33,841 nt of DNA. It comes from a bacterium (GTDB lineage: Bacteria > Hydrothermota > Tepidihabitantia > B3-TA06). Shown here one piece after another: positions 16,528 through 33,841 of this stretch; positions within the stretch are counted from its first letter, which is position 1; every line of letters starts with the position of its first letter. Under the pieces are notes generated by a model that was not told where the DNA came from, ran no database searches, and saw only the letters and a program-made list of their open reading frames with translations. The DNA lies in the NCBI GenBank assembly GCA_012517375.1, contig JAAYVC010000018.1:1-33841 (forward strand), read 5' to 3'. The position numbers and the translations under genes were made by a program.

Positions 16528-16536
16528 ATTTCGCTC

Positions 16537-17421: not shown

Positions 17422-17429
17422 CATCGCTC

Positions 17430-19324: not shown

Positions 19325-19372
19325 CTAATTGCCTCCAATTAGCGAAGTGAATTCTAAAGGAACCTCTGCTGA

Positions 19373-19400
19373 AGGATACTCAGCCGGAGCGTATTGTCAA
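19373..19400 (-). promoter_or_regulatory. Possible promoter of the hydrogenase operon
   Basis: On the - strand: TTGACA (19400-19395), 16 bases, TATCCT (19378-19373), about 50 bases before hydB. The same -10 sequence is seen in front of the VOC gene. No regulator site was recognised. Confidence 0.5.
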
Positions 19401-19527
19401 CCCCTGCATCATTTTATAAGCATGCTAAAACAAGAGTCTTATCAAATAAATTTCTTCGTTAAGCAGCGTCCGAAAGGGATTTCAGAACCGGCTTTGGTTT
19501 GCCTTATCTTGCTTTTTGTCAGACCTC

Positions 19528-19998: not shown

Positions 19999-20008
19999 AA
20001 GTATAACC

Positions 20009-20671: not shown

Positions 20672-20712
20672 AATTCCTCCTTGCAGTGTTTCCCGATATC
20701 AGCAAGCGTTAA

Positions 20713-20740
20713 ATCATATTCACGATACTCAAAACGTCAA
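20713..20740 (-). promoter_or_regulatory. Promoter of LolA-like copy 1
   Basis: On the - strand: TTGACG (20740-20735), 16 bases, TATGAT (20718-20713), about 41 bases before the ATG at 20671. Confidence 0.6.
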
Positions 20741-20761
20741 CAATCCCTGAGCGATTAGAGC

Positions 20762-21421
20762 CTAAAGCCTGAAAAGGTCATCCGGCATCGCCGGATTGAG
20801 CCTCAAATCCCTGAGTATTAGCCACTGCAATTCATTTCCGTTTTTGTCAAAGCTCACGAGCCTTCGGGGAAAAGAAGTTTTATTGTCAAGCCAGTAGCGC
20901 TCGCGAGCCACGCCTCCAAGGTTTTGCGGGGAGTTTGCTACAAACTCGATTACCGTGCATTCAGCTCCATCGAAGAACTCGACTTTGACGACCGCCGTCT
21001 TGCCGTTGGCAAGAAACCAATCAATGCGCTTGAACATATACGTAAAACTCACCTCGTACATCTTCTCTCCGCGCAGCGTGAGCACCCTTTCATCGGATGG
21101 GTCGTAACTGAGGAGGAGGGGAATAAGGGGATGCCTGGCAAGGATTACGTCTTTTTCAGGGTCGTAAACCGCCTTCGTGCCCTTGTTTTTGCCCTCAAGG
21201 ATGTCGTTGCGCACCCAGACCGGGCTTTTATATGAAAAGTCCACTGTGCGCTCCTCCGTTTTCTGCTCCTTCGCCTGACGGTACGACATCCGGACTGTGT
21301 ATGCCGTGACCTTCGCCCACTCCTCTCTCATGCGCTGGATAAGCGCACCTGCGTCCTCTGCCGCAAGCATGGAAACGCTCAGAGCTGCGGCCAGGAAGAG
21401 TCTCGATATAGTTAGATTCAT
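20762..21421 (-). CDS. LolA-like/outer-membrane-lipoprotein-sorting-fold periplasmic protein, copy 2
   Basis: A 219-residue paralog of the 20009-20671 gene. It has a signal peptide (residues 1-20) and the same order of strands: RTVDFSYKSPVWVRNDIL, KAVYDPEKDVILAR, KVEFFDGAECTVIEFVA, ARERYWLDNKTSFPRRLVSFD, and ends RDLRLNPAMPDDLFRL. Both copies keep the VARERYWLD..TS.PR and LR(D/N)L.LNP cores, which points to a shared ligand or partner. Its promoter is divergent from that of the metallo-beta-lactamase-fold gene and its -35 lies in a palindrome. Function is unknown beyond the likely lipid- or lipoprotein-binding fold. Confidence 0.7.
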   Translation of the reverse strand: MNLTISRLFLAAALSVSMLAAEDAGALIQRMREEWAKVTAYTVRMSYRQAKEQKTEERTVDFSYKSPVWVRNDILEGKNKGTKAVYDPEKDVILARHPLIPLLLSYDPSDERVLTLRGEKMYEVSFTYMFKRIDWFLANGKTAVVKVEFFDGAECTVIEFVANSPQNLGGVARERYWLDNKTSFPRRLVSFDKNGNELQWLILRDLRLNPAMPDDLFRL

Positions 21422-21445
21422 TCAACCTCGTTTATTTATTAACCG

Positions 21446-21473
21446 ATAATACCTACAATTCCTCTGCGGTCAA
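21446..21473 (-). promoter_or_regulatory. Promoter of LolA-like copy 2
   Basis: On the - strand: TTGACC (21473-21468), 16 bases, TATTAT (21451-21446), about 24 bases before the ATG. Confidence 0.6.
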
Positions 21474-21491
21474 GGAGCTTCTTCCTTGACC
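21468..21491. promoter_or_regulatory. Palindrome that holds both divergent -35 boxes
   Basis: GGTCAAGGA (21468-21476) and TCCTTGACC (21483-21491) form a perfect nine-base inverted repeat. Its ends are the -35 boxes of LolA-like copy 2 (-) and of the nuclease gene (+). It may be an operator, or just the result of two back-to-back promoters. Confidence 0.5.
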
Positions 21492-21513
21492 TAGGTGGGA
21501 TGCGGTGTAGAAT
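21486..21513 (+). promoter_or_regulatory. Promoter of the metallo-beta-lactamase-fold gene
   Basis: TTGACC (21486-21491), 16 bases, TAGAAT (21508-21513). The first ATG of the gene is only five bases after the -10, so the transcript would begin at or next to the start codon. Confidence 0.55.
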
Positions 21514-21518
21514 AATTA

Positions 21519-22523
21519 ATGCGCATCCGCGAAAACATGAGGATCGAGTTCGGGAGTCATGCCCTCGTTCTCGACCATCCCGGTCCGAACGGCGAACCTG
21601 TTTTCATATCACACGCGCACTCAGATCATGCGGTCCGCAAGGGCAGGATAATCGCAACCCCCGAGACCGCAAGATTGCTGGAAGTGCGTTACAACGCTAA
21701 TTCCGCCGAGGTGTTGCCCTGCAGGAAGAGAATCGAGATCGAAGGGATGAATGTAACGCTCTATCCTTCGGGACACATACTCGGCTCTGCCCAGATACTT
21801 GTTGAGACGAGCCAGACAAGCCTTTTGTACTCAGGCGACATCAAGCTGCGGCCCGGCTACTCGGCCGAACCGATAGAGGTCCCCCAGGCGGAGAATCTTA
21901 TCGTGGAGGCGACGTTCGGCAGCCACATGTTCCAGTGGCCCCGCAGGGAGACTATAGAGGAGCGGATTGCGGAGTTCGCGGAAGACGGCAAGCGATTCGG
22001 CTTCACTGCATGCTACATGGCGTATTCGCTCGGCAAGGCGCAGGAGCTTTTGATGGTACTGGCAAAGGCGGGCATTCGCGCGTACGTGTCGGAGAGCGTT
22101 TTCGAGATGTGCAAGGTGTACGAGGAGTTCGGTGTGAGGTTCGGAGACTACAGGCTTTACAAGGACGAAGCCGAGATCGACGGCGTGCTCGTGATACCGC
22201 CGCAAAAGGCGCACCATTTGAATCTGTCCGGGACGAAGCGGGGTCCCCATGAGAATGCGCAGTATTCTCATGGGGTAAAGTTTGCGTTGGTGTCTGGCTG
22301 GGCTTTGACCGAGAGACGGGGCGAGGTGCCGGGCATTCCCTTGAGCGACCATGCCGACTTCGGTGAATTGCTCCGATACGTGGACAAGGTGAAGCCCCAA
22401 AAGGTGTGGACCACGCACGGCTACGCGCGAGACCTTGCCTCCGCGCTCCGGCACCGCGGCTACAACGCCCAGGTTCTGCCCGAGCGCGATAAGGAAAGGC
22501 AGCTCGAACTTGTAGTGGGTTGA
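21519..22523 (+). CDS. Metallo-beta-lactamase-fold exonuclease-like protein (COG1236/YSH1 type)
   Basis: A 334-residue protein of the RNA/DNA-processing branch of the metallo-beta-lactamase superfamily. The metal motifs are visible: FISHAHSDHA (His32, His34, Asp36, His37), the His of SGHILGSAQ, the Asp of YSGDIKLRPG, and LSDHADF near 287-293. A late THGYA gives the last His. The beta-CASP part is short. Relatives process RNA 3' ends or act as DNA-ligase-associated exonucleases; no ligase gene is near. No Shine-Dalgarno site is seen before ATG 21519 or before the next ATG at 21537 (MRIEFGSH); I keep the first because it lies at the predicted transcription start. A 31-base inverted repeat lies inside the gene. 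Confidence 0.75.
   Translation: MRIRENMRIEFGSHALVLDHPGPNGEPVFISHAHSDHAVRKGRIIATPETARLLEVRYNANSAEVLPCRKRIEIEGMNVTLYPSGHILGSAQILVETSQTSLLYSGDIKLRPGYSAEPIEVPQAENLIVEATFGSHMFQWPRRETIEERIAEFAEDGKRFGFTACYMAYSLGKAQELLMVLAKAGIRAYVSESVFEMCKVYEEFGVRFGDYRLYKDEAEIDGVLVIPPQKAHHLNLSGTKRGPHENAQYSHGVKFALVSGWALTERRGEVPGIPLSDHADFGELLRYVDKVKPQKVWTTHGYARDLASALRHRGYNAQVLPERDKERQLELVVG
22245..22275. repeat. Perfect inverted repeat inside the metallo-beta-lactamase-fold gene
   Basis: CCCCATGAGAAT (22245-22256) and ATTCTCATGGGG (22264-22275) are perfect inverses with a seven-base loop. They encode a loop region (PHENAQYSHG) just before the conserved VSGWAL strand, so the protein stays in frame. Confidence 0.6.
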
Positions 22524-22597
22524 CAACGTGCACTATCCCTCCCCTTGTGAGAGGGAATAGAAGGAAGGGGGATCCTCCCTTTTCAACAATCATGTTA

Positions 22598-22628
22598 TTG
22601 CTTCGCAAGTCCCTGACTTGTGAAGCAA
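22598..22628. repeat. Hairpin after the nuclease gene
   Basis: TTGCTTCGCAAGT and ACTTGTGAAGCAA pair over 13 bases with one G-U type mismatch and a CCCTG loop. No T run follows, so it is not a standard terminator. Confidence 0.5.
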
Positions 22629-22801
22629 TCGCCTGAATCCAAGGGCAGGGCTCCGAAGGCAAACGCAGAGAACCATCGCGTCCATCGTTGCCGCTAACTC
22701 GCCTTTAACCATAACTAAGGATTGACAAAAAGACGTGGAAGAGTTAAGATTGGGTATGCCTCCTCTTTTGGGATTGACATTCACGATTCTAGGCGGTAGA
22801 A

Positions 22802-23014
22802 GTGTACATCCACATATCACATAGTCGGTATGCCCTAGACAGCTCTGCCGGAAGATGGTTTAGGGCGGATACACTTCCTTTCAACAAACCAGGGTCGGAG
22901 GTTGTATTTGCTGATGTCCAACCGGAACAATTGGCGGAAGGAAAATTCGGACTACACAAATATCCAGTTGCAGTGATAATTCCTCCTTACCCTTTTTACA
23001 AACAAGCCAAATGA
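22802..23014 (+). CDS. Doubtful small ORF or gene remnant
   Basis: A 70-residue frame from GTG 22802 with no clear ribosome site. A TTGACA at 22774-22779 lies upstream but has a poor -10. The C-terminal half (FNKPGSEVVFADVQPEQLAEGKF and then KYPVAVIIPPYPFYKQ) has an ordinary amino-acid mix, so it may be the end of an old gene. No family is recognised, and it may not be expressed. Confidence 0.3.
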   Translation: MYIHISHSRYALDSSAGRWFRADTLPFNKPGSEVVFADVQPEQLAEGKFGLHKYPVAVIIPPYPFYKQAK

Positions 23015-23041
23015 ACCCCTTCACATCGAGGAGGGGAACCC

Positions 23042-23169
23042 GTCATCGCGAGGTCGCAGCGGCGACCGTGGCGATCTCCCAGCACTTTTTCTGAGCATAT
23101 GGCACTCGCTCATGTATTCTGACTTTCTGCCAGGAGATTGCCACGCCTTCTTCGAAGGCTCGCAATGAC
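23042..23169. repeat. MITE-like palindromic element, copy 1
   Basis: The ends are imperfect inverted repeats of about 40 bases. The left end begins GTCATCGCGAG and reaches GTGGCGATCTCC; the right end, read in reverse, begins GTCATTGCGAG and reaches GTGGCAATCTCC. Repeats of this GTCATTGCGAG...GCAATCTC type are scattered in many bacterial genomes. The element has no coding capacity and ends 14 bases before the GIY-YIG start. Confidence 0.7.
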
Positions 23170-23182
23170 AAAGAAAAAGGCA

Positions 23183-23469
23183 ATGCAATACTACGTCTAC
23201 ATCATGACCAATAACTACCGCAATGTTCTCTATACGGAGGTGACAAATAACCTCATCCGTCGAGTTTACGAACACAAGGAGAAGCTCGTTGAAGGTTTTA
23301 TAAAAAGTACAAACTCGATAGACTCGTCTACTACGAAGTATTCTCAGACCCCCTGAGCGCGATTGAAAGGGAAAAGCAGATAAAGGCGGGAACGCGAAGG
23401 AGGAAGATAGGGCTTGTGGAATCCCTGAACCCTTCCTGGCGCGATTTGTGGGAGGAGATTTCGGCCTGA
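23183..23469 (+). pseudogene. GIY-YIG endonuclease family gene with a one-base frameshift
   Basis: From ATG 23183 the frame reads QYYVYIMTNNYRNVLYTEVTN and LIRRVYEHKEKLVEGFIK, the start of a YhbQ/URI-like GIY-YIG domain protein. After an A5 run at about 23301 the family sequence goes on in the next frame (KYKLDRLVYYEVFSDPLSAI, EREKQIKAGTRRRKIGLVES, LNPSWRDLWEEISA) and stops at 23467-23469. One more A would restore a full gene of about 96 residues. The usual YTGVTNN Gly is Glu here, which also suggests decay. The genes of this family are small, lone, and often found among repeats. A sequencing error in the A run cannot be ruled out. Confidence 0.8.
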
Positions 23470-23536
23470 AAATGCAACATCTGACCTTTCATCAGCTCCG
23501 CATATTTCCGGTGCCCCCGTGCGCTGACGCGTTTCA

Positions 23537-23620
23537 TTAACCCAGCCCGATCGCCCGGAGGATGGTTTGGAGTTTGTCCTTATCTTTTCGGTTCAAAGGA
23601 AAACTTCTCCCGACTTTCCC
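23537..23620 (-). pseudogene. Possible C-terminal remnant of an unknown gene
   Basis: On the - strand a short open piece reads SGKVGRSFPLNRKDKDKL and QTILRAIGLG, then TAA at 23539-23537, with a TGA just before it. The amphipathic charged ending resembles the last helix of DapA-like aldolases, but the piece is too short to assign. Confidence 0.22.
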
Positions 23621-23649
23621 TGAAAGTCATCGCCCGTAACACATTTCGC

Positions 23650-23752
23650 CCTCACCCCGCGCTCCCCTGGAGCTCCCCCCTCTCCCCTCCATCAAGGAGG
23701 GGGGAAATAATTATACCTCCCCCTTGACGGGGGAGGGTAGGGTGGGGGTGTA
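23650..23752. repeat. GC-rich element of opposed C and G runs
   Basis: The left end (CCTCACCCCGCGCTCCCC) and the right end (GGGAGGGTAGGGTGGGGGTG) are rough inverses. Inside are two hairpins, CCCCTCC-ATCAA-GGAGGGG and CCTCCCCC-TTGAC-GGGGGAGG. Blocks of this CCCCTTGACGGGGGAGGGTAG kind are common dispersed repeats in bacterial genomes. No coding sequence. Confidence 0.6.
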
Positions 23753-23846
23753 AATGAGAGTTTAGTTGATACTAATTCATCCTCCCCTTTATCCACTGGC
23801 CATGTTGGGGCCACTCTGTCCCATCAAGGTAAGGGGACCCCTATCC

Positions 23847-23994
23847 GTCATCGCGAAGGAGTAACCGTTAGGACGTGGCTCCTCAGGGCGAACGCAGTGA
23901 GCAATCTCATAGCAGAGACCTGAAAAATATGGCGCCGACTCAGTTTTTTAGCGCCGTGCTATGGGATCGCCACGGCCGACCCTCTGGGTCGGCC
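23847..23994. repeat. MITE-like palindromic element, worn copy 2
   Basis: It starts GTCATCGCGAAGGAG as copy 1 does, and has GAGCAATCTCATAGC facing GCTATGGGATCGCC in inverse. The right end has lost the CTCGCAATGAC part. It closes with a perfect nine-base hairpin (GGCCGACCC-TCT-GGGTCGGCC, 23974-23994). Confidence 0.5.
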
Positions 23995-24238
23995 GCCTCC
24001 CTTAATAAAGGAGGCAAGGCAATAGTGCTGATTTATTGAGTTAAAGCCCCCCATATGAAGGGTTGGTGGTTTTTTTACCCCTTTTATCGAAATAGCCCTG
24101 CCGAAGCTGTAGGCTTCGAGCCGAATGCATGCGCTTCCAGCGCTCGTCTGTGCTTCGAGCGCTCGTTCGGCCATGCCACCTCTGGTGGCTATTTGTCCAT
24201 CTTTTGACTAGCTTTTGACCAGCTTCCAGGCGCGGCGC

Positions 24239-24266
24239 TTGACCTTTCATTCAACTCGACTATAAT
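24239..24266 (+). promoter_or_regulatory. Promoter of hypCDE
   Basis: TTGACC (24239-24244), 16 bases, TATAAT (24261-24266). The ATG of hypC begins only seven bases after the -10, so the message is probably leaderless. No Shine-Dalgarno site is present. Confidence 0.7.
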
Positions 24267-24272
24267 TCTACC

Positions 24273-24506
24273 ATGTGCATAGGAATTCCTGCGAAAGTCA
24301 TTGAGTTAAGCGGAGATAAGGGCAAGGTGGACTATCAGGGAGTCGTGAGGGAGACCTCGTTCGTGATGCTTCCTGAGGCAAAGGTAGGCGATTATGTTAT
24401 TCTACATGCTGGATTTGCGATAAAACTACTATCCGAAGAGGACGCAAAAGAAACCCTTGAAATGATAGAAGAGCTTATCAAAACCGAAGCAACTCTCGAT
24501 GAGTGA
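24273..24506 (+). CDS. hypC: Hydrogenase maturation chaperone HypC
   Basis: A 77-residue protein of the HypC/HupF family. It starts MCIGIPAKVIEL: Cys2, the residue that binds the Fe(CN)2CO unit together with HypD and the large subunit, is present once the Met is removed. The rest (DYQGVVRETSFVMLPEAKVGDYVILHAGFAIKLL) is the normal small beta barrel, and the C-terminal helix is acidic. It overlaps hypD by eight bases. The client is expected to be the group 3b-like hydrogenase encoded about 5 kb away on the other strand. Confidence 0.93.
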   Translation: MCIGIPAKVIELSGDKGKVDYQGVVRETSFVMLPEAKVGDYVILHAGFAIKLLSEEDAKETLEMIEELIKTEATLDE

Positions 24507-25608
24507 ACAACTTACAGAGATACTGAAAAGACTGGGCAGCGATGCAGAACTTGCAAAAGGGTTGATTGAGCGCATCAGGGTGAAAGCTCATAAGTCCTTT
24601 ACTTTCATGGAGGTATGCGGCACTCATACCCACGCAATCTCGAAAACGGGCATAAGAAAAGCGCTTGCGGGCAAGATTAAACTACTTTCAGGACCCGGCT
24701 GCCCTGTTTGCGTTACGCCGGATGAGGAGATAGACGCCTTTATATCTCTAGCAAATATGAAAGATGTGGTCGTAGCAACCTTCGGCGACATGCTCCACGT
24801 ACCGGGAACAAAAGGGTCTCTTGCGGAGGAAAGGGATAGTGGTAGGGATATAAGGGTCGTATATTCAGCACTTGACATTCTCGATATGGCGGAGAGGGAA
24901 AAAGGGAAGGAATTTTGTTTCCTGGGCGTCGGTTTCGAGACCACTTCTCCGACCGTTCTGGCGACAGTAGCCGAGGCTAAGATACGGAAAATACGTAACT
25001 TCTCTATATACTCCTCGTTCAAATTGATACCTCCGGCATTGAGGATGATTGCCTCGCACCCTGAGCTCAATATCGATGGTTTCCTTCTTCCAGGTCACGT
25101 AAGTGCGATAATTGGAACCCAACCTTACCGGTTTCTCGTCGATGAGTTCAAGCGACCGTCGGTTGTTGCAGGTTTTGAGGCCCTGGATATACTCGAAGCG
25201 ATACTCATGATGTTAAACGAGATAAGTAACGGAAAGCCTGAGCTTGAAATCCAATACAAGAGGGTGGTCACTTCTGAAGGAAACCCCAATGCCCTGGGAT
25301 TGATTGAGGGTATGTGCGACGCTAAGGATTCGGTATGGCGCGGCTTAGGAGTGATTCCAGACACGGGTTTGAAGTTAAAGGATGAGTGGAAGAATTTCGA
25401 TGTCGAGTGCAAACTCGGGCTTGCTCCAGTAAGTTACAGGGATAGTGGAGCTTCCAAAGCTTGTCGCTGCGGGGACGTGCTCTTGGGAAGGATACTGCCT
25501 CTGGAATGCCCTTTGTTTGAAACAATTTGTACGCCTGAGAAAGCGGTTGGCCCATGCATGGTCTCTTCCGAGGGTGCATGCGCCGCATATTATAAATATG
25601 AAAGATAG
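24499..25608 (+). CDS. hypD: Hydrogenase maturation factor HypD
   Basis: A 369-residue iron-sulfur protein that works with HypC to assemble Fe(CN)2CO. Family motifs are all present: CGTHTHAISKTGIR (about 39-52), GPGCPVCVTP (about 65-74), GVGFETTSP (about 143-151), a LPGHVSAI segment, and the four-Cys C-terminal region (ACRCGDVLLG, LECPLFETICTPEKAVGPCMVSSEGACAAYY) that holds a [4Fe-4S] cluster. The ATG lies inside the end of hypC, and the gene's last 11 bases overlap hypE, so the three genes are translated as one unit. Confidence 0.95.
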   Translation: MSEQLTEILKRLGSDAELAKGLIERIRVKAHKSFTFMEVCGTHTHAISKTGIRKALAGKIKLLSGPGCPVCVTPDEEIDAFISLANMKDVVVATFGDMLHVPGTKGSLAEERDSGRDIRVVYSALDILDMAEREKGKEFCFLGVGFETTSPTVLATVAEAKIRKIRNFSIYSSFKLIPPALRMIASHPELNIDGFLLPGHVSAIIGTQPYRFLVDEFKRPSVVAGFEALDILEAILMMLNEISNGKPELEIQYKRVVTSEGNPNALGLIEGMCDAKDSVWRGLGVIPDTGLKLKDEWKNFDVECKLGLAPVSYRDSGASKACRCGDVLLGRILPLECPLFETICTPEKAVGPCMVSSEGACAAYYKYER

Positions 25609-26602
25609 TGTCATAGGACTCGGTCACGGCTCAGGCGGACGCAAAACGGCACGGTTGGTTAAGGAGCTATTTCTTAAATACTTAGGGAATCCGATTCTTG
25701 AAAGACTGGAAGACGCTGCAGAACTTCCCGTGGAGCGAGGCAGGATTGCCTTGACGACCGATGCGCACGTTGTTGAGCCTTTGTTTTTCCCAGGAGGGGA
25801 CATCGGAAAGCTAGCCGTATGCGGTACGGCTAACGACCTTGCTGTAAAAGGAGCAAAGCCAAGATTTATGACGGCAGGCTTCGTGCTGAGGGCTGGAATA
25901 AGCCTTGATGTGCTCGAACGGATTGTTGCTTCAATGGCTGAGGAGTTGGACAGGTTAGGAATGAAGTTAATTGCAGGAGATACGAAGGTTATAGAAAAGG
26001 GAGAGAAGGATGAGTGCTACATCACTACCACAGGGTTCGGTGTGCTCGAACACGAGCGTACTTTTGCGTCTGAACGGATTGAGCCGGGCGATGCCATTCT
26101 CGTATCCGGAGAAGTCGGGAATCACGAAGCGTCTGTCGTCCTTTCCAGGTCGAACTTCGGATTAAAGCAGAATATTCGTTCCGATGTCGCCCCCGTGTGG
26201 CCGCTCGTTCATGCGTTGATTCAGGCGGACGTGGACATTAAGGTCATGCGCGACCCTACCCGCGGCGGGCTTGCAACAACCCTTAACGAGTTATGCGATG
26301 CCTCAGGATTGGGAATGCTCATTCACGAACGAGACGCACCTTTCAATCCAGAGGTCAAAGGGGTAGCGGAAATGCTGGGACTCGACCCTTATTACCTTGC
26401 TTCCGAGGGCCGTCTGATTGCTATTGTAAACCCTGAAGATGCACATAAAGCCCTCGATATTATGAGAAAAAAAGGAAGCGATACAGCTGGCATTATTGGC
26501 GAGGTGCGGACCGCTCCCGCCGGCTTGTGGCTGGATACTATTCTGGGTTCAGAACGACCGCTCCTCATCTTAGAGGGCGAACAGCTACCACGCATCTGCT
26601 AA
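25598..26602 (+). CDS. hypE: Hydrogenase maturation factor HypE
   Basis: A 334-residue PurM-like enzyme that dehydrates the carbamoyl group on its C-terminal Cys to thiocyanate, the source of the CN ligands. I start at ATG 25598, which overlaps hypD by 11 bases, because family similarity begins directly (VIGLGHGSGGRKTARLVKEL); a longer frame from 25445 only reads hypD out of frame. Seen: TTDAHVVEPLFFPGGDIGKLAVCGTANDL, AGDTKVIEKG, MRDPTRGGLATTLNEL, and the exact C-terminus PRIC with the acceptor Cys. HypF, which supplies the carbamoyl group, and HypA/HypB for nickel are not in the window. It ends 36 bases from the convergent luxC-like gene. Confidence 0.95.
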   Translation: MKDSVIGLGHGSGGRKTARLVKELFLKYLGNPILERLEDAAELPVERGRIALTTDAHVVEPLFFPGGDIGKLAVCGTANDLAVKGAKPRFMTAGFVLRAGISLDVLERIVASMAEELDRLGMKLIAGDTKVIEKGEKDECYITTTGFGVLEHERTFASERIEPGDAILVSGEVGNHEASVVLSRSNFGLKQNIRSDVAPVWPLVHALIQADVDIKVMRDPTRGGLATTLNELCDASGLGMLIHERDAPFNPEVKGVAEMLGLDPYYLASEGRLIAIVNPEDAHKALDIMRKKGSDTAGIIGEVRTAPAGLWLDTILGSERPLLILEGEQLPRIC

Positions 26603-26638: not shown

Positions 26639-28066
26639 CTACTCTATGCCGGTCCATCTGACAAAATCCAGAAGATTAAATCTTCCATCGTGACGCCACA
26701 AAATCGATGGACCCGCCATTTCGCCCAGTTTCGGGATACGGTCCAGACCAAGCTTACCCATCTCCTCGGCAAGAGGCATTAAACGTTCCTCGGGCAGAGC
26801 GGCGCCCATCGTCTGAAGGTATTGTTTAATAGGCGTGACAAGGCGGACGACATCCATCACGTCCTTGACCGGTTTTACGCGGATTGTCCGGTTGAGGCAG
26901 GAGGGAACAAAAGTCGGATCCTGTTCGTAGATAACGGTCCACGATGTACCTTGAGAGCTCATGTGAAGGGCTACGCCGTCGTCGCCGAACGCGCGAAACT
27001 CGTAGGAGCCGCGAAGCTGGTTTATATGGGCGGACTCGTCGGGCGTTATTCGTCCGCGAGGGATGCGCTGATTGAACTGCTCCATCGCCTCTGCCAAGTA
27101 TCCTGAGAATTCCTTGGGAGTTATCTCTCCGCCTTCCTCTGTGTAGAAGACATGCGGAGAGACGCAGCCCTGCTGGTCGAGCATGGACACGTTGGCTGCC
27201 GCGTTCGCTGCAGTGTCTTTTACTCTTTCCGCCGAGAGGGCTTCGCGGCCTATTACGCCGAAGCTCAGCTTATGGCCGTAGGAGAGGAGTTTGACATCGG
27301 GAGGAACCCTTTTGCGTGCATCGTTGACCGAATGCTCAGAGCCGTAAACGACCACCGCATCGGATCTGCTGAACGCCAGCCGCTCTATCTCCTCGTTGCC
27401 GCCCTTCCATAAAACCATGGCTACGCAGCGCGCGAGCTGCGGGTCAACCTCGGCTATGGACCGGGCGAAGAGCGTAGCGAACAAGGGTTCTTCGGATGCG
27501 GACTTCCCAAGCACTGCCGATTTCAGTAGCAGGGAGTAGATGGTGTTCAACATAGACGCGCCGGGCGCGTTGCCTGCGAATACTATAGTGGTCAGGGAAG
27601 GGCCGTAAGCCCTTATGTATCCGCCTGATCTTTTGCGGGGCCGGAACTCATCAAGCACGAGGGGGTCTTCGAACTCGTCCTCAAGAAGGAGTTTGAGATT
27701 TTCAGTTGAAAACATCGCGCTGATTCCTCCAAGCGTGAGCTCAACCATCGGCGCGGAAAATCTTGTTATGACGGGCAAAAGTTTCACGGCAAGCCTGCGG
27801 AGAGGATATTCCGGATTCCTCCACAATTCGACAACCTTGCCTATGGTCTCGGCTATCTCCAACACTGGTTTTTTGACCAAATACTCTTCGCGCGCCGCAA
27901 GGAGCGAGTCGATGGTCTTCGTTAAGATATCCGGGGTAAGCACTGGCGCATTCATTTTAACCCTGATGCCGTCGTAGCCGAACTCGAGCGGAACGAACTC
28001 CTTAAAATCGGACTCTTCAAGTCCGGGAATATAAAAGGCAGGCAGTGTTGTTGTTTCTGGCATCAT
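26639..28066 (-). CDS. luxC: LuxC-like acyl reductase (fatty aldehyde-forming)
   Basis: A 475-residue member of the LuxC/acyl-CoA reductase family in the aldehyde dehydrogenase superfamily; it reduces an acyl thioester to an aldehyde with NADPH. The expected catalytic Cys is C301 in MLDQQGCVSPHVFY, which fits the acylated Cys region of LuxC. Other family parts are RAYGPSLTTIVFAGNAPGAS (152-171), LLLKSAVLGKSASEEPLFATLFA, and SYGHKLSFGVIGREAL. The gene begins six bases after the luxE stop (ATG at 28066, or 28063 with better spacing from AAGG). In luminous bacteria LuxC, LuxE and LuxD form one complex; luxD and luciferase are absent here, so the aldehyde must serve another end, such as alcohol, alkane or wax-ester formation, or sensing. 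Confidence 0.85.
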   Translation of the reverse strand: MMPETTTLPAFYIPGLEESDFKEFVPLEFGYDGIRVKMNAPVLTPDILTKTIDSLLAAREEYLVKKPVLEIAETIGKVVELWRNPEYPLRRLAVKLLPVITRFSAPMVELTLGGISAMFSTENLKLLLEDEFEDPLVLDEFRPRKRSGGYIRAYGPSLTTIVFAGNAPGASMLNTIYSLLLKSAVLGKSASEEPLFATLFARSIAEVDPQLARCVAMVLWKGGNEEIERLAFSRSDAVVVYGSEHSVNDARKRVPPDVKLLSYGHKLSFGVIGREALSAERVKDTAANAAANVSMLDQQGCVSPHVFYTEEGGEITPKEFSGYLAEAMEQFNQRIPRGRITPDESAHINQLRGSYEFRAFGDDGVALHMSSQGTSWTVIYEQDPTFVPSCLNRTIRVKPVKDVMDVVRLVTPIKQYLQTMGAALPEERLMPLAEEMGKLGLDRIPKLGEMAGPSILWRHDGRFNLLDFVRWTGIE

Positions 28067-28072
28067 AACCTT

Positions 28073-29224
28073 CTAAGCCCGCTGCGCCGATATGAGTTCG
28101 TCGTAGGCAATAGAGCAACCGCGCGTTTCTGAGCCGGCGGCACGTCCTACTATCTCGAAGCCGGAACCTGTCTCAAAGCCCATATCATCCGTCAGAACCG
28201 CTTGTACTGATGTCATATTTGCCACGCTGTGCTGGCGAAGCAATCCACGCTCACCCTTAGGTAAAGGCTTCAGGGTATCGGGATCAACCACCACAACCCT
28301 GGCAAAGTGAGGGATCATCTTGGCGCGCGGCTCGGAAATCCCTCTTACGTGGTTGTAGAAGACGTTGTCGACGTACGACGCTTCCATCTCTATCAAGCCG
28401 TAGTGATTGATCATGTGGCTTTCAGGTATGCCCAGCGTCTTTCCGGCCAGCTTCCTGTACTCTTCCTTGGAGAGTTCTCTTCCTTTTCCCTTGTTGCCGC
28501 CGCCGTCCATGGCGCGGCTTCCCGCGGGAAGCTTGAAGCTGATATTCTGCGCCTGGCAGAAATCAAAGAAGTGGACGTACGCGAAGGTGGCTCCTGCAAT
28601 AAACACAGGTTCGCCGGTTTTCTCCGCAAGCTTCAGTCTTTCCGCAAGCCCTGCAAAATCGAATCCCTTGGGATTTATGAAGAACTCAGGCTTCCCTATT
28701 GAATGCCCTTCTACAAGAATCTTTATCTGACTCATTCCTGCCGCCGCGCTGGGCATGAGCTCCGGATCGGGCGCCAGGAGCAAGGCATGGATCTTCTCGT
28801 CCCGGGATTTGTAATATCCTCGGTCTTTGAGATATTCGCCGTTCAGTTCGCGTATCTTGACTTGCGTTTCGTTAAGGCTTATTTTCGCGCGCTTCTCGGG
28901 ATTGGATGTTCCGCTGCTCGTCAACACCTGCACCGTCTCTTCATCCGAAATGGTCCTAAGTTCGACTTCCTTGAAAGCCACGGCAGGAACGGCAGGAACA
29001 TCCGTCCACGCTTTTATCATTCCGGGTTTTACACCCTTTTTTTCACAGTATTTATGATAAATTTGGTTCGCGTTGTACTGGTACTCAAAAAGCCTCATGG
29101 ACAGCTCGTTGAACTTCTTTTCGTTCTCGTCATTAGACTGTTCTGCTCCTTTTTTTATGAAATCAATTATATCATTTCCAAGGGATTGAACAAACTCTGA
29201 CTTCGAGGCGTATTTCTCGCTCAT
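28073..29224 (-). CDS. luxE: LuxE-like acyl-protein synthetase, copy 1
   Basis: A 383-residue protein of the LuxE (acyl-protein synthetase) branch of the PaaK/adenylate-forming superfamily, which activates a fatty acid with ATP and holds it on a Cys near the C-terminus before passing it to LuxC. Seen: VPAVPAVAFKEVELRT, the Ser/Thr-rich loop LTSSGTSNPEKRAKIS (ATP-binding), FIAGATFAYVHFFDF, GGGNKGKGRELSKEEY, INHYGLIEMEASY, HFARVVVVDPDTLKPLPKGERG, and C370 in ETRGCSIAYDEL as the likely acyl carrier Cys. AAGGAGGATTTAATG gives a strong start. It leads the luxE-luxC operon and is divergent from the first SpoIIAA-like gene. The chain length of the acid is unknown. Confidence 0.85.
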   Translation of the reverse strand: MSEKYASKSEFVQSLGNDIIDFIKKGAEQSNDENEKKFNELSMRLFEYQYNANQIYHKYCEKKGVKPGMIKAWTDVPAVPAVAFKEVELRTISDEETVQVLTSSGTSNPEKRAKISLNETQVKIRELNGEYLKDRGYYKSRDEKIHALLLAPDPELMPSAAAGMSQIKILVEGHSIGKPEFFINPKGFDFAGLAERLKLAEKTGEPVFIAGATFAYVHFFDFCQAQNISFKLPAGSRAMDGGGNKGKGRELSKEEYRKLAGKTLGIPESHMINHYGLIEMEASYVDNVFYNHVRGISEPRAKMIPHFARVVVVDPDTLKPLPKGERGLLRQHSVANMTSVQAVLTDDMGFETGSGFEIVGRAAGSETRGCSIAYDELISAQRA

Positions 29225-29270
29225 TAAATCCTCCTTGCATCAACGCATAAGACGTTAATTTCAGATCGTT

Positions 29271-29294
29271 TCAAGCGCCCAACCCCGCATACGA
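29271..29294 (-). promoter_or_regulatory. Conserved block in the luxE copy 1 leader
   Basis: 24 bases identical to 32509-32532. Read on the luxE strand it contains GTATGCGGGGTTGGGCGC. It lies in the predicted untranslated leader, about 50 to 70 bases before the ATG. It may bind a protein or form an RNA element. Confidence 0.55.
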
Positions 29295-29353
29295 GGCTGC
29301 TCCAGAAACACCAGCTGTCTTAGGAGATAGATTATCGTTTAGCCCTGCTGTTT

Positions 29354-29381
29354 ATTTTAGGTAATTTCTATTTCGTGTCAA
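29354..29381 (-). promoter_or_regulatory. Promoter of luxE copy 1-luxC
   Basis: On the - strand: TTGACA (29381-29376), 16 bases, TAAAAT (29359-29354). The same two boxes and spacing stand before luxE copy 2. The predicted leader is about 120 bases. Confidence 0.7.
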
Positions 29382-29419
29382 GTCTTTTTTAGAGTAGTCC
29401 TTAATTCGTAAAAAAACGC

Positions 29420-29447
29420 TTGACAATGACCTAAAAATTACTACTAT
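29420..29447 (+). promoter_or_regulatory. Promoter of SpoIIAA-like copy 1
   Basis: TTGACA (29420-29425), 16 bases, TACTAT (29442-29447). It repeats at 32655-32682 and, with a TAATAT -10, at 30657-30684. Confidence 0.7.
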
Positions 29448-29470
29448 AATGTACTTTGCGGCTATCTGGT

Positions 29471-29483
29471 ATGTGTGGGTAAT
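29471..29483 (+). promoter_or_regulatory. Leader motif ATGTGTGGGTAAT, copy 1
   Basis: This 13-base motif is identical in front of SpoIIAA-like copies 1, 3 and 4, each time 21 to 23 bases after the -10 box, so it is in the transcribed leader. Copy 2 lacks it. Its role is unknown; an operator or an RNA-level site are both possible. Confidence 0.6.
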
Positions 29484-29549
29484 GCTGAATATGGTAAATT
29501 GATTCTTAATAGAGGAGGATTAATAACATTAAACTCTCAGGAGGCTAGC

Positions 29550-29948
29550 ATGGCGAAAGAAAAGTTCAAGGTATGGTATGATGAAAAGGAGGGGGTGCTT
29601 CAGACAGAAATCTACGAAACCTTCGACGTAGAAACCCTCAATCAGTACTTTACGGAAGTTTCAAAGTACACACCCGAACAGCAGAGTTATTTTATCGGCT
29701 GGATGTACGATGACGCTCAGAAAATGCCCGACAAGGAAGCGCGCAGGATTGCGAAGGAGAAGATAAAGGATCTGCACTTCAAAAAAGTGGTTGCCATTGG
29801 CGCCAAACCCGTAATCCGCATGGTCTACACCATAGTAATCACAGCTATTGGACGGAAGAAAGACTTCTTCTTTTGCGATACCGTCGAAGAAGGCCTAACC
29901 TGGTTAAGAGAGCAGAAAAACCTAGCTAAAAAGGCTGCAAGCTTATAG
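29550..29948 (+). CDS. SpoIIAA-like (STAS/SEC14-type) small protein, copy 1
   Basis: A 132-residue soluble protein starting at ATG 29550 after CAGGAGG; an upstream in-frame GTG at 29475 lies in the leader. The four copies in the window align without gaps. The N-terminal half (KFKVWYDEKEGVL, then ETFDVETLNQYFTEVSKYTPEQQ) gives a strand, helix and strand. The C-terminal half (HFKKVVAIGAKPVIRMVYTIV, ... EEGLTWLREQK) has the pattern 'strand, G-x-K, helix, strand, EEAxxWL' of SpoIIAA-like proteins (PF11964), a STAS-related fold that also resembles SEC14/CRAL-TRIO lipid-binding domains. No phospho-Ser site as in true SpoIIAA is evident. It is divergent from luxE, so a link to acyl chemistry is plausible; function is inferred only. 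Confidence 0.72.
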   Translation: MAKEKFKVWYDEKEGVLQTEIYETFDVETLNQYFTEVSKYTPEQQSYFIGWMYDDAQKMPDKEARRIAKEKIKDLHFKKVVAIGAKPVIRMVYTIVITAIGRKKDFFFCDTVEEGLTWLREQKNLAKKAASL

Positions 29949-30140
29949 AACTAGGTTTCCCGGACCGTGTTTTATTTTGTTCGAAAAGTTTATTGTCAGT
30001 TGAGTTGAGAAAGATTGATTTTGCTCATAAAAATCTTAAGCCGGACTGAAAGATATTAGCATTTTATTCAGATGATTTTAGTCTTGTAAAACTAACTTAA
30101 GCACAGGAGAAATAAAAATTCAAAACTCCAGGAGGCAGCA

Positions 30141-30539
30141 ATGGCTTCACCGAAGTTCAAACACTGGTATGATGAAAAGGAAGGGGTGCTTCGTGGAGAA
30201 ATCTACGAAAGATTCAACGCAGAAACGCTAGAAGAGATCAGCGCCGACTTGTCAAAATACACGCCGGAACAGCAGAAATATATTGTCGGTCATATATTGG
30301 ACGACGCTCAACAAATGCCCGGCAAGGAAGAGCGCAGGATTGGCAAAGAGAAAGCCGGGCTTGTACGCTTCAAAAAGGCGGCTATATGGGGCGCCAAACC
30401 GGTAATCCGCATGGTCGCAAGTATCGTTTTAACCGCCCAGGGTCGAGGAAAGGACGTCAAGTTCTTCGTTAGCGAGGAAGAAGCAATTGCCTGGATTAGG
30501 GAACAGAAAGAATTGGAAAAGAAAACCGCGCTTAAGTGA
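30141..30539 (+). CDS. SpoIIAA-like (STAS/SEC14-type) small protein, copy 2
   Basis: A 132-residue paralog with the same start (KFKHWYDEKEGVLRGEIYE) and the same core (RFKKAAIWGAKPVIRMVASI, then SEEEAIAWIREQKE). The ATG follows CCAGGAGG by six bases. It lies 192 bases after copy 1, and no strong promoter or 13-base leader motif was found between them, so it is probably read through from copy 1. An AGGAG about 28 bases before the real ribosome site matches the double site seen in the other copies. It is close to copy 4 in the GEIYERF and AQGRGKD segments. Confidence 0.72.
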   Translation: MASPKFKHWYDEKEGVLRGEIYERFNAETLEEISADLSKYTPEQQKYIVGHILDDAQQMPGKEERRIGKEKAGLVRFKKAAIWGAKPVIRMVASIVLTAQGRGKDVKFFVSEEEAIAWIREQKELEKKTALK

Positions 30540-30656
30540 TGAATGGTCCCTGCCCTATAAAAGACACTCCGTTATTTGCAGCTTTTTGCCGATATCGTTC
30601 AGGACGTTTTTCCAGCACCAAGTCCAGTCAAAATTAATCTTAACATGCAAAAGCCC

Positions 30657-30684
30657 TTGACAAAAAACTAAAAAGGATTAATAT
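30657..30684 (+). promoter_or_regulatory. Promoter of SpoIIAA-like copy 3
   Basis: TTGACA (30657-30662), 16 bases, TAATAT (30679-30684). The spacer keeps the CTAAAAA stretch of the other two promoters. Confidence 0.65.
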
Positions 30685-30705
30685 AATGTACTTCTCGAAT
30701 CGGAC

Positions 30706-30718
30706 ATGTGTGGGTAAT
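30706..30718 (+). promoter_or_regulatory. Leader motif ATGTGTGGGTAAT, copy 2
   Basis: Identical to the motifs at 29471 and 32705; it lies 21 bases after the -10 of SpoIIAA-like copy 3. Confidence 0.6.
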
Positions 30719-30787
30719 ATAGAAACTACGAAATGATTCCCTGCACAGGAGGGTTAATAGGTATGAATTTCCAGGAGGTAATATATT

Positions 30788-31186
30788 ATGGAAGAAACAA
30801 AATTCAAACTTTGGTACGACGAGAAGGAGGGGGTTCTTCGATCAGAGATATACAAGAAATTTGATATAGAAACACTCGAAGAGTACTTTGCGGAAATCTC
30901 CAAGTTCACTCCTGAGCAGCAGCATTACATCATCGGCTGGGTATTCTGCGACGCACAGCAAATGCCCGACAAGGATGCGCGCATGCTTGCGAAGGAGAAA
31001 TTCAAAACTGCCCATTTCAAAAAAATAGCGAACCTTGGCGCTAAACCGATTGTGCGCATGGTTTCCAACATCATAATGATCGCCGTAGGAAAAGGGAAAG
31101 ACAACAAGTACTTCGAAAGTGAAGAAGACGCCTTAGCCTGGATTAGAGCGGAGAAAGAGAAGGATAAAAAGGCTCAAGCAAGCTAA
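30788..31186 (+). CDS. SpoIIAA-like (STAS/SEC14-type) small protein, copy 3
   Basis: A 132-residue paralog with the most changed ends (EETKFKLWYDEKEGVL; AWIRAEKEKDKKAQAS) but the same core (HFKKIANLGAKPIVRMVSNI). It has its own promoter and leader motif. The leader carries a short upstream frame from ATG 30763, which begins after AGGAGGG, uses the second ribosome site as codons (CAG GAG), and ends inside the gene, out of frame. It faces luxE copy 2, 127 bases away, with no clear terminator between. Confidence 0.72.
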   Translation: MEETKFKLWYDEKEGVLRSEIYKKFDIETLEEYFAEISKFTPEQQHYIIGWVFCDAQQMPDKDARMLAKEKFKTAHFKKIANLGAKPIVRMVSNIIMIAVGKGKDNKYFESEEDALAWIRAEKEKDKKAQAS

Positions 31187-31313
31187 TTCCTTCGTCTAAT
31201 TACTGGAACTAGGTTTCAGAACTCAATAACAATCCGATAATAGGTTTTATTCCCGAGTTTAATTTATCTGCAAGCAAAAAAGCGCTTAGGTGGCTCGCAA
31301 AGATCCTAGAATC

Positions 31314-32465
31314 CTATGCCCGCTGCGCCGATATGAGTTCGTCGTAGGCGATAGAGCAGCCGCGGGTTTCCGCATCCCTGGCGCGTCCTGTTACCTCGAA
31401 ACCGGAACCTATCTCAAAGCCCATATCATCGGTTTGAACGGCTTGTACGGTCACGAGATTAGCCACGCTGTGCTGGCGCAACAGGCCCCGCTCGCCTTTA
31501 GGTAAAGGCTTTAGGGTGTCGGGGTCAACGACAACAACCCGTGCAAAGTGAGGGATCATCTTGTAGCGCGGTTCGGAGATGCCTCTCACATGGTTGTAGA
31601 AAACATTGTCGAAATACGCCGCCTGCATCTCGGTCATGCCGTATAGATTAATCAGATGATCGGGGGGGATGCCAAGTATCTTTTCTCCAAGCCTCAAATA
31701 CTCCTCTTTCGATATCTCTCTTCCCTTTCCCTTGTTGCCTCCGCCATCCATAGCTCGACTCCCTTCTGGAAGCTTGAATGAGATACCCTGCGCCTCGCAG
31801 TAGTCGAAAAAGTGAACATACCCGAAAGTTGCACCCACCATCACGCAAGGTTCGCCTGAGCGCTCCACTTGCCTCAGTTTTTCCGCAAGCCCGGCAAAAT
31901 CGAATCCGGTAGGCTTGATGAAGAATTCAGGCTTTCCTTTCGAGTGCCTGTCCACACTTATCTTCAGTTGGCGCATTCCTATAGCCACACTGGGCATCTC
32001 GTCGGGATTAGGGCCGAGAACAATTGCATGAAGCTTCTCATCGGCAGATTTGTACAAACCCCTGTCGTTGATGCTTATGCCAACCTGGTCATATATCTTA
32101 AGCATAGGTTCGTTGAAACTGATCTTTGCACGCTTCTCCGGATTGGTTGTTCCGCTACTGGTCAAGAACAAAACCGTTTCTTCCGCTGGAAACGTGCGCA
32201 GCTCCACTTCCTTGAAGGCGGCAGCTGGTACCGCAGGGACATCCGTCCACTCGTTGATCATTTCGGGCCGTACCCCGCGTTTGTCGCAGTACTTTTGATA
32301 GACATGGTTAGCGTTGTACTGGTATTCAAAGAGCCTCATGGACAAATCGTTGAACACCTTCTCGCTCTCAGCGTCGGATTGTTCAGCTCCGTTTTTTATG
32401 AAATTTTCTATGTCTTTTGCAAGGGACTGGACGAATTCGGAGTTCGTTGTGTATTTCTCGCTCAT
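31314..32465 (-). CDS. luxE: LuxE-like acyl-protein synthetase, copy 2
   Basis: A second LuxE of exactly the same length as copy 1 (383 residues), starting at ATG 32465 after AAGGAGG; a longer frame to 32528 only reads the leader. All key segments are kept: LTSSGTTNPEKRAKIS, GGGNKGKGREISKEEY, INLYGMTEMQAAY, the HFARVVVVDPDTLKPLPKGERG block, and the C-terminal Cys in ETRGCSIAYDEL. The two copies are strongly alike along their length. Differences cluster in the substrate part (for example MVGATFGYVHFFDYCEAQ against IAGATFAYVHFFDFCQAQ), so chain-length preference may differ. No luxC gene follows; it may share the one at 26639 or serve another acceptor. Confidence 0.83.
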   Translation of the reverse strand: MSEKYTTNSEFVQSLAKDIENFIKNGAEQSDAESEKVFNDLSMRLFEYQYNANHVYQKYCDKRGVRPEMINEWTDVPAVPAAAFKEVELRTFPAEETVLFLTSSGTTNPEKRAKISFNEPMLKIYDQVGISINDRGLYKSADEKLHAIVLGPNPDEMPSVAIGMRQLKISVDRHSKGKPEFFIKPTGFDFAGLAEKLRQVERSGEPCVMVGATFGYVHFFDYCEAQGISFKLPEGSRAMDGGGNKGKGREISKEEYLRLGEKILGIPPDHLINLYGMTEMQAAYFDNVFYNHVRGISEPRYKMIPHFARVVVVDPDTLKPLPKGERGLLRQHSVANLVTVQAVQTDDMGFEIGSGFEVTGRARDAETRGCSIAYDELISAQRA

Positions 32466-32508
32466 TAAATCCTCCTTGATAACGCGTAAAACGTTATTAT
32501 TAATTTTA

Positions 32509-32532
32509 TCAAGCGCCCAACCCCGCATACGA
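32509..32532 (-). promoter_or_regulatory. Conserved block in the luxE copy 2 leader
   Basis: 24 bases identical to 29271-29294, while the sequence on both sides has changed; this points to selection on the block. Confidence 0.55.
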
Positions 32533-32589
32533 AGCTGTACTCAAAACACCAACTGATTTATGAAAATTATCTTTTAGCCCTATTTTTGT

Positions 32590-32617
32590 ATTTTAGAAGA
32601 TTTCTTTTACGTGTCAA
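32590..32617 (-). promoter_or_regulatory. Promoter of luxE copy 2
   Basis: On the - strand: TTGACA (32617-32612), 16 bases, TAAAAT (32595-32590). Confidence 0.7.
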
Positions 32618-32654
32618 GTCTTTTTTTCGATTATTGTTAACTCGTAAAAAACAC

Positions 32655-32682
32655 TTGACAAAGACCTAAAAAGTGTTACTAT
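32655..32682 (+). promoter_or_regulatory. Promoter of SpoIIAA-like copy 4
   Basis: TTGACA (32655-32660), 16 bases, TACTAT (32677-32682). Confidence 0.7.
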
Positions 32683-32704
32683 ATTGTGTTTTCTAAATTC
32701 AGGT

Positions 32705-32717
32705 ATGTGTGGGTAAT
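32705..32717 (+). promoter_or_regulatory. Leader motif ATGTGTGGGTAAT, copy 3
   Basis: Third identical copy, 22 bases after the -10 of SpoIIAA-like copy 4. Confidence 0.6.
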
Positions 32718-32785
32718 ACTGAGCGGATAAAACCAGTTCTAAAAATACAGGAGGGTTTATGAACATAAATCTTCAGGAGACTACT

Positions 32786-33190
32786 ATGGCGAAAGAAAAG
32801 TTCAAACTCTGGTACGATGAAAAGGAAGGTGTACTTCGTGGAGAAATCTACGAAAGATTCGACGTGGAGTCCCTCGAGCGGTTCTATAACGAGGCTACCA
32901 AGTATACACCAGAACAGCAGCACTACGTCGTCGGTTGGTTATACGACGAGGCACAGAAAATGGTTGGCAAGGAAGAGCGAAAGATTGCCAAGGAAAAGGG
33001 TGATCTGGTGCATTTCAAGAAAATGGCACTCCTTGGCGCAAAGCCGGTTATTCGAATGGTTGCCCAAATAGTCATGTCCGCTCAAGGACGGGGTAAAGAC
33101 TTCAAGTTCTTCGACAGCGAGGAAGAAGCCTTAGCCTGGATTAGAGAGCAAAAAGCGTTGGATAAGAAAGCTCTGGCAACACAAAGATAG
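32786..33190 (+). CDS. SpoIIAA-like (STAS/SEC14-type) small protein, copy 4
   Basis: A 134-residue paralog. I start at ATG 32786 (MAKEKFKLWYDEKEG), which matches the other copies and follows CAGGAG. An in-frame ATG at 32759, after AGGAGGG, could add nine residues (NINLQETT); this is the first of the two ribosome sites found in every leader of the family. The core is HFKKMALLGAKPVIRMVAQI with the end SEEEALAWIREQKALDKKA. It is divergent from luxE copy 2 in the same way as copy 1 is from luxE copy 1, and it is followed after 30 bases by an RsbR-like gene. Confidence 0.72.
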   Translation: MAKEKFKLWYDEKEGVLRGEIYERFDVESLERFYNEATKYTPEQQHYVVGWLYDEAQKMVGKEERKIAKEKGDLVHFKKMALLGAKPVIRMVAQIVMSAQGRGKDFKFFDSEEEALAWIREQKALDKKALATQR

Positions 33191-33220: not shown

Positions 33221-33841
33221 ATGCCTAAAGCGATAAAAGACCTGGAGGAAAGGCTTGCAAGGATGGAAGAGATTCTCTCTCAGGCGGCCTGCGGCGGATT
33301 CGATGTTGAGTTCGACTTTAATGAGGAGAATATCGACGCGCTGACCGGCGTTGAGACAGGGGTAAAAGTGCTTATAGCCGATATGGGCGAGACGATCACC
33401 GAAAGCCGCAAGCGCGCAGAGGAACTCGAGGAGAAGCTTGACCTCATCGAACAGCAGCGCAAGGCTATAGAGGAGCTCTCCACCCCCATCATAAAGATAT
33501 GGGACCAGGTACTCGTACTGCCTCTGATTGGAACTTTGGACACAAGACGTTCGCAAAGGCTTACGGAATCTCTATTGACTGACATTGCGGCGACCCAGAC
33601 AAGGGTGGCGATTCTGGACATCACGGGCGTGCCTACAGTTGACTCGGCTGTTGCAAACCACATATTAAAGACGGTTTCTGCCGTAAAGCTTCTTGGAGCC
33701 GACTGTGTTATAACGGGCATAAGACCGGACGTTGCCCAGACAATCGTACATCTTGGGGTGGATTTATCGGATGTCGAGACCCTGTCAAACCTGTCGGAAG
33801 GGCTCAAGTGGGCGTTCGAATACCTGAATCTCGAAATTAAC
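33221..33841 (+). CDS. RsbR-like STAS-domain protein (3' truncated by window end)
   Basis: The frame opens at ATG 33221, with ATGAGGAGC seven bases before, and runs to the end of the window without a stop (207 codons). The N-terminal part is charged and likely coiled coil (KDLEERLARMEEIL, then SRKRAEELEEKLDLIEQQRKAIEEL, about 60-87). From about residue 88 there is a STAS domain of the RsbR type: STPIIKIWDQVLVLPLIG, LDTRRSQRLTESLL, VAILDITGVPTVDSAVANHI, and GADCVITGIRPDVAQTIVHLG. The T and S of GVPTVDSA are at the usual phosphorylation positions of stressosome proteins (RsbR co-antagonists). It may be co-transcribed with SpoIIAA-like copy 4. No RsbS, RsbT or sigma factor gene is seen before the window ends. 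Confidence 0.85.
   Translation, partial: MPKAIKDLEERLARMEEILSQAACGGFDVEFDFNEENIDALTGVETGVKVLIADMGETITESRKRAEELEEKLDLIEQQRKAIEELSTPIIKIWDQVLVLPLIGTLDTRRSQRLTESLLTDIAATQTRVAILDITGVPTVDSAVANHILKTVSAVKLLGADCVITGIRPDVAQTIVHLGVDLSDVETLSNLSEGLKWAFEYLNLEIN

Follow-up and report, generated by a model that had tools for sequence, protein, structure and literature searches.

SpoIIAA-like proteins encoded divergently from luxE as candidate inputs of a stressosome-type module in Candidatus Stahlbacteria

Why would the genes of a LuxE–LuxC acid reductase share a few kilobases with an amplified family of small SpoIIAA-like proteins? The question is raised by contig JAAYVC010000018.1 of assembly GCA_012517375.1, from a bacterium whose named relatives are metagenome-assembled genomes of Candidatus Stahlbacteria (candidate division WOR-3). 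The window, meaning the whole 33,841-nucleotide stretch analysed here, is an entire contig (C18) of a 2.54-Mb, 125-contig genome (G000; labels in G, C and L denote genomes, contigs and loci). A sequence-only reading of the window had picked out one luxC, two luxE and four gap-free paralogs of 132–134 residues (hereafter S1–S4) within 6.6 kb, and had proposed that the small proteins handle the intermediates of LuxE and LuxC. All seven genes are confirmed at positions 26639–33190, with Pfam or alignment support. We tentatively propose that S proteins feed an RsbR signalling module as soluble STAS/SEC14-like subunits, and that they are matched to the neighbouring LuxE through its substrate or its state. 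A genetic link between S and LuxE is likely. We hold the full statement less firmly because sensing of LuxE's substrate, product or acylated state is a step that we infer. The features of the locus are listed by window coordinates and strand.

26639..28066, minus: luxC-type acyl reductase, 475 amino acids (aa); PF05893, 6e-92
28073..29224, minus: luxE1, ANL-type acyl-protein synthetase, 383 aa; PF04443, 3e-28
29225..29549, no strand: divergent promoter region between luxE1 and S1; shares 76% identity with its luxE2/S4 counterpart
29354..29381, minus: predicted sigma70-like promoter of luxE1-luxC, TTGACA-16-TAAAAT
29420..29450, plus: predicted sigma70-like promoter of S1, TTGACA-19-TATAAT
29550..29948, plus: S1, SpoIIAA-like (STAS/SEC14-fold), 56–65% identical to S2–S4
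30141..30539, plus: S2, SpoIIAA-like; PF11964, 26.3 bits (cut-off 25)
30657..30687, plus: predicted sigma70-like promoter of S3, TTGACA-19-TATAAT
30788..31186, plus: S3, SpoIIAA-like; PF11964, 25.6 bits
31314..32465, minus: luxE2, the other acyl-protein synthetase, not followed by a luxC; PF04443, 1e-25
32466..32785, no strand: divergent promoter region between luxE2 and S4, a duplicate of the one between luxE1 and S1
32590..32617, minus: predicted sigma70-like promoter of luxE2
32655..32685, plus: predicted sigma70-like promoter of the S4-rsbR operon, 19-bp spacer
32786..33190, plus: S4, SpoIIAA-like; PF11964, 28.8 bits; predicted structure with pLDDT 95.7 and pTM 0.86
33221..33841, plus: rsbR-type gene running off the contig end; encodes a HAMP-like pair of helices with a coiled coil, followed by a STAS domain; PF01740, 5.6e-16

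Within the window, luxE1 and luxC form a two-gene operon with a 6-bp gap, facing S1–S3, and luxE2 lies between S3 and S4; a genome-wide search found no further LuxE or LuxC genes. The two luxE/S intergenic regions (~330 bp) hold their 76% identity over full length, LuxE1 and LuxE2 (74% identical) are sisters with 100/100 support, and S1–S4 form a clade with 98/97 support. Judged by these similarities, the divergent S–luxE cassette was duplicated in the window lineage together with its promoter region. The predicted promoters of S1, S3 and S4 all have a 19-bp spacer, and after the promoter their leaders share the invariant sequence ATGTGTGGGTAAT. Leaders in one related genus (g3) carry a 28-base invariant block. 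No Rfam match to a riboswitch or known RNA was found in the S leaders of the window or of a relative.

The arrangement recurs in relatives, as the sequence-only reading had suggested checking. We searched 147 genomes of the phylum and found divergent S and luxE in one family only, in five further genomes that together with the window make six genomes from three genera. In each of the five with an unbroken locus (G001, G002, G004, G005 and G006), luxC–luxE faces a divergent S, followed by rsbR, rsbS and then rsbT; STAS and HATPase identities come from Pfam, and rsbT was called in four of the five, the script making no call in G005. This gene order puts S at the head of a signalling module of the stressosome type. 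The S reading frames are intact, and the genes flanking the locus differ among the three genera. Two S/luxE cassettes occur in G002 and two S–rsbR pairs in G001. Next to luxC, genera g2 and g3 have an SDR gene, whose window-genome orthologs are a tandem pair on C89. A contig end cuts luxE in G007, and neither luxE nor a lux-type S was found in G003 (81% complete).

The link to luxE is confined to one branch of a large family. A search of the window genome gave 34 matches to S, about 30 of them beyond S1–S4 and none of these near luxE; G001 has at least 50. In a tree of 145 S sequences, the 11 lux-linked proteins form one clade (SH-aLRT 99) and all 11 are encoded divergently beside luxE, as against 0 of the 134 others near any luxE. 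The sequence-only reading had named, as a finding that would count against it, small proteins lying mostly away from lux in relatives. That is true of the S family overall and untrue of the lux-type subfamily, which is never away.

S and LuxE also vary together. Between G002 and G004, identity is down to 59% for LuxE and 65% for S, whereas LuxC, RsbR, RsbS, RsbT and SDR share 85–97% and the intergenic DNA (luxC-side cassette) 97%. The variation falls in the middle of LuxE and the first half of S, with the ends of both conserved. In G005 and G006, by comparison, LuxE (97%) and S (96%) are nearly the same and exceed LuxC (91%), a pattern that suggests distinct alleles more than evolution that is fast throughout. 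Such alleles have presumably been replaced by recombination. This co-diversification suggests, without proving, that S senses or partners with what LuxE handles. Across four loci (L044, L047, L048 and L049), the luxE/S intergenic DNA (~520 bp) keeps 83–97% identity from one genome to another and is better conserved than the luxE and S genes on either side.

LuxC is closest among solved structures to the LuxC of the LuxC–LuxE fatty acid reductase 7xc6 (5.6e-27), with the nucleophilic cysteine aligned; the nucleophile motif DQQGC-301-SPH is invariant in an alignment of 7 relatives. LuxE1 matches the 7xc6 LuxE (2.8e-30), and its C-terminal RGCS cysteine aligns with C364. As in that reductase, both enzymes retain the cysteines for catalysis or acylation, and luxE immediately precedes luxC. 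Unlike it, the locus has extra luxE copies that vary mid-protein, scores fall far below the NCBIfam equivalog cut-offs for bioluminescent LuxC/LuxE (84 and 69 bits against 550; 105 against 750), and the genome has no luciferase. The absence of luciferase, claimed earlier for the locus, extends to the whole genome: PF00296 has no match anywhere in it (luxD was not part of the search), which sets the locus apart from bacterial bioluminescence systems with luciferase luxAB. The acyl-cysteine is invariant in the LuxE set except in one solo luxE (L046:8350-9504 in G001), found without luxC or S. There REYS replaces the RGCS cysteine, and the protein may be unable to form an acyl-cysteine.

The S proteins are predicted to adopt the SpoIIAA-like fold that had been proposed from sequence. 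S1–S4 are 55–70% identical and align without internal gaps; S1 falls below the Pfam SpoIIAA-like cut-off (25 bits), yet is plainly homologous to S2–S4, and 83 of 86 S homologs match PF11964 at E<=0.01. The AlphaFold2 model of S4, built with 86 homologs, has the order beta-beta-alpha-beta-alpha-beta-alpha-beta-alpha. Its top Foldseek matches are the anti-sigma-factor antagonists RsfB (3e-4) and SpoIIAA (5e-4), and lower-ranked ones include the SpoIIAA-like protein 2q3l, RsbS and alpha-TTP. By sequence, the only meaningful match in the Protein Data Bank (PDB) was 3bl4 (0.016). A formin-binding protein (0.0013) also appeared in that search and looks like a coiled-coil artefact.

Lux-type S proteins differ from both of their nearest known relatives. 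They share sequence and predicted fold with the SpoIIAA-like family PF11964/DUF7793 (2ook, 2q3l, 3bl4), but have an operon link to rsbR and a loop signature of their own, D/E-D/E-A-Q with an invariant Gln, where other S proteins carry D-[LM]-[ST]. For 2ook and 2q3l, a CRAL-TRIO-like nonpolar cavity and membrane insertion via alpha2/alpha3 aromatics were proposed (PMC2954212). Helix alpha2 of lux-type S is 54% charged, with 0.09 aromatics per helix, a composition that weakens the cavity and membrane-insertion reading. With SpoIIAA and RsfB, their best fold matches, lux-type S proteins share stressosome-type partner genes. Identity to these is ~15%, and the canonical phospho-site before alpha2 holds D, S, G or E in place of a conserved phospho-acceptor Ser or Thr.

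The rsbR-type gene begins 30 bp after S4, just outside the interval of the sequence-only reading, at 33221, and continues to the contig end. Its product matches Listeria and Vibrio RsbR structures (to 1e-38), and its best fold match is the stressosome 7b0u (3e-13). Thr112 and Ser146, 34 residues apart and invariant in 17 homologs, align with the Listeria phospho-acceptor positions T175 and T209 (PMC9237128). RsbS keeps its DSF serine in the five relatives and at C87 and C95 of the window genome. On these two contigs and in relatives, RsbT has a kinase-type HATPase domain that retains the N and G boxes; a phmmer search of RsbT against the PDB gave nothing at 0.001, although the Pfam HATPase match is clear. 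The module shares with the RsbR–RsbS–RsbT stressosome modules of Bacillus, Listeria, Vibrio and Moorella both phospho-acceptor positions in the RsbR STAS domain; in relatives and at C87 and C95 it also has the RsbS serine, the RsbT kinase and the operon order, and in sister modules here a SpoIIE-type phosphatase follows. It differs in its HAMP-like RsbR N-terminus where known modules have a globin-like one, in one or more SpoIIAA-like genes before rsbR, in the divergent luxE–luxC and in a window copy that probably lacks adjoining rsbS and rsbT. We place it provisionally among the stressosomes, which are megadalton complexes, rather than in a separate category. We make no claim that lux-linked RsbR proteins form a clade, the RsbR tree being mostly unresolved. 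Elsewhere in the genome (C71, L123:3070-5049), a TPR-GAF-STAS protein has a STAS domain ~60% identical to that of RsbR and is, by this similarity, another putative input protein to the same signalling family.

Away from lux, S genes lie mostly in head-to-tail arrays that run into rsbR, often followed by rsbS–rsbT, a HATPase–SpoIIE phosphatase and another STAS-like protein; other S genes adjoin NarL-type response regulators. Because the arrays run into rsbR or adjoin response regulators and histidine kinases, S is, judged by context, a signalling family. Soluble kinases beside some S genes have N-termini that match the RsbR N-terminal model. Since S genes occur with both, S is suggested to signal to the HAMP-like modules of RsbR and these kinases. 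For HAMP itself the Pfam matches are weak, at 0.09 for a stand-alone homologous protein and 0.003 for a related kinase.

From this context we propose how the module could work. LuxE would activate a carboxylic, probably fatty, acid and hold it as an acyl-cysteine, and LuxC would reduce the bound acyl group to an aldehyde. S proteins and the HAMP-like/STAS sensor RsbR would be made from the same divergent promoter region, with RsbS and mostly RsbT following in the relatives. S proteins probably bind the neighbouring LuxE's substrate, its product or acyl-LuxE itself, and then change state. Passed to RsbR, that state would gate RsbT's phosphorylation of RsbR and RsbS and the release of RsbT.

Several points weigh against this proposal. 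Common ancestry accounts for part of the conservation, since every relative with the lux/S locus belongs to a single family. The charged alpha2 of lux-type S is unlike that of the open-cavity SpoIIAA-like Shewanella protein, which has membrane-facing aromatics (PMC2954212), and the RsbR N-terminus is predicted as helix–connector–long helix rather than the usual globin-like sensor. Moreover, the end of the window and a 4.4-kb contig, C21, have 283 bp in common (98.9% identity), and on C21 rsbR stops against a convergent gene, not rsbS or rsbT. If C21 is the true continuation, rsbS and rsbT are therefore probably not adjacent to the window's own rsbR, and the kinase would have to come from C87 or C95, which hold complete S...-rsbR-rsbS-rsbT-phosphatase modules. 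Contact of S with RsbR, binding of S to LuxE, ligand binding and the direction of regulation are likewise steps that we infer.

The S proteins could instead be generic subunits of RsbR modules, unrelated to LuxE chemistry, with luxE–luxC as a divergent output or neighbour. S genes do sit mostly with RsbR and two-component genes and without lux, the best fold matches are STAS antagonists, and LuxE–LuxC pairs of other phyla lack S: none of six distant luxE–luxC loci (Gemmatimonadota, Thermodesulfobacteriota and others) has S or RsbRST nearby. We think this unlikely, given that linkage of lux-type S is clade-exclusive, that S was co-duplicated with LuxE, and that these are the two variable genes of an otherwise conserved locus. 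That the paralogs were amplified locally, lack a specific function and lie beside lux by chance is disfavoured and highly improbable; the S family does amplify readily in these genomes, yet the locus persists across six genomes and three genera with changing flanks, intact S frames and clade exclusivity.

Two further explanations give S a direct role beside LuxE. S could act on LuxE as an allosteric regulator or chaperone, with MlaB and the STAS domain of YchM as precedents for such action on a partner; the stressosome genes would then control S through phosphorylation or sequestration. Each luxE of these loci has an adjacent divergent S, the two vary together, STAS proteins regulate enzymes or transporters (PMC7367683), and a YchM STAS–ACP structure exists (3ny7). 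The window's four S to two LuxE and the missing canonical phospho-serine make this distinctly unlikely. The sequence-only reading had S shuttle the fatty acid, acyl or aldehyde intermediate from LuxE to LuxC, with differing chain preferences. The resemblance of SpoIIAA-like proteins to CRAL-TRIO domains (PMC2954212; 2q3l and alpha-TTP are both matched) and the co-diversification with LuxE favour it, but a carrier is unneeded because LuxE and LuxC form a complex (7xc6), and the distant luxE–luxC pairs manage without S. S is operonic with RsbR, RsbS and RsbT, not with luxE–luxC, LuxC does not co-diversify, and alpha2 lacks membrane-facing aromatics. With most S far from lux and anti-sigma-factor antagonists as best fold matches, a role limited to carrying is improbable.

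Six genomes link a stressosome operon with a pair of enzymes that activate and reduce an acid, and the candidate sensor has diversified along with the enzyme. The association points to a definite class of ligand and to an enzyme-coupled input that can be tested. The signal of most stressosomes is unknown, heme/O2 in Vibrio being the described exception (PMC4976288). SpoIIAA-like proteins, which had no assigned ligand or function, gain a cellular context, and growth of the family to dozens of copies in a genome is documented. A broader idea, which we consider doubtful, is a combinatorial stressosome in Stahlbacteria: tens of interchangeable STAS/SEC14-like subunits would feed HAMP-like/STAS RsbR hubs, S–LuxE specificity cassettes would be exchanged between strains, and particular carboxylic acids would be sensed via their activating enzyme. 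It would amount to a stressosome with a defined metabolic ligand. The earlier statement that no described system has this make-up agrees with the literature, in which, with limited coverage of subscription journals, we found nothing joining luxE, luxC and the stressosome and nothing on SpoIIAA-like proteins as stressosome inputs.

Some S arrays are large. One on C28 of the window genome (G000:C28:27253-37914, L021) has ~24 tandem SpoIIAA-like genes ending in an rsbR gene, and three in G001 (L052, L053 and L054) are larger still. Scattered in these three and in L055 are stand-alone ~78-residue proteins equivalent to the HAMP-like RsbR N-terminus. In other families of the phylum (L111 and L112), S is operonic with a receiver protein and a PAS histidine kinase. 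Upstream of luxC in the window, and outside the conserved lux neighbourhood of relatives, positions 15238–26602 encode a nickel hydrogenase, an iron-sulfur protein, HypD and an AIR-synthase-related (HypE-like) protein.

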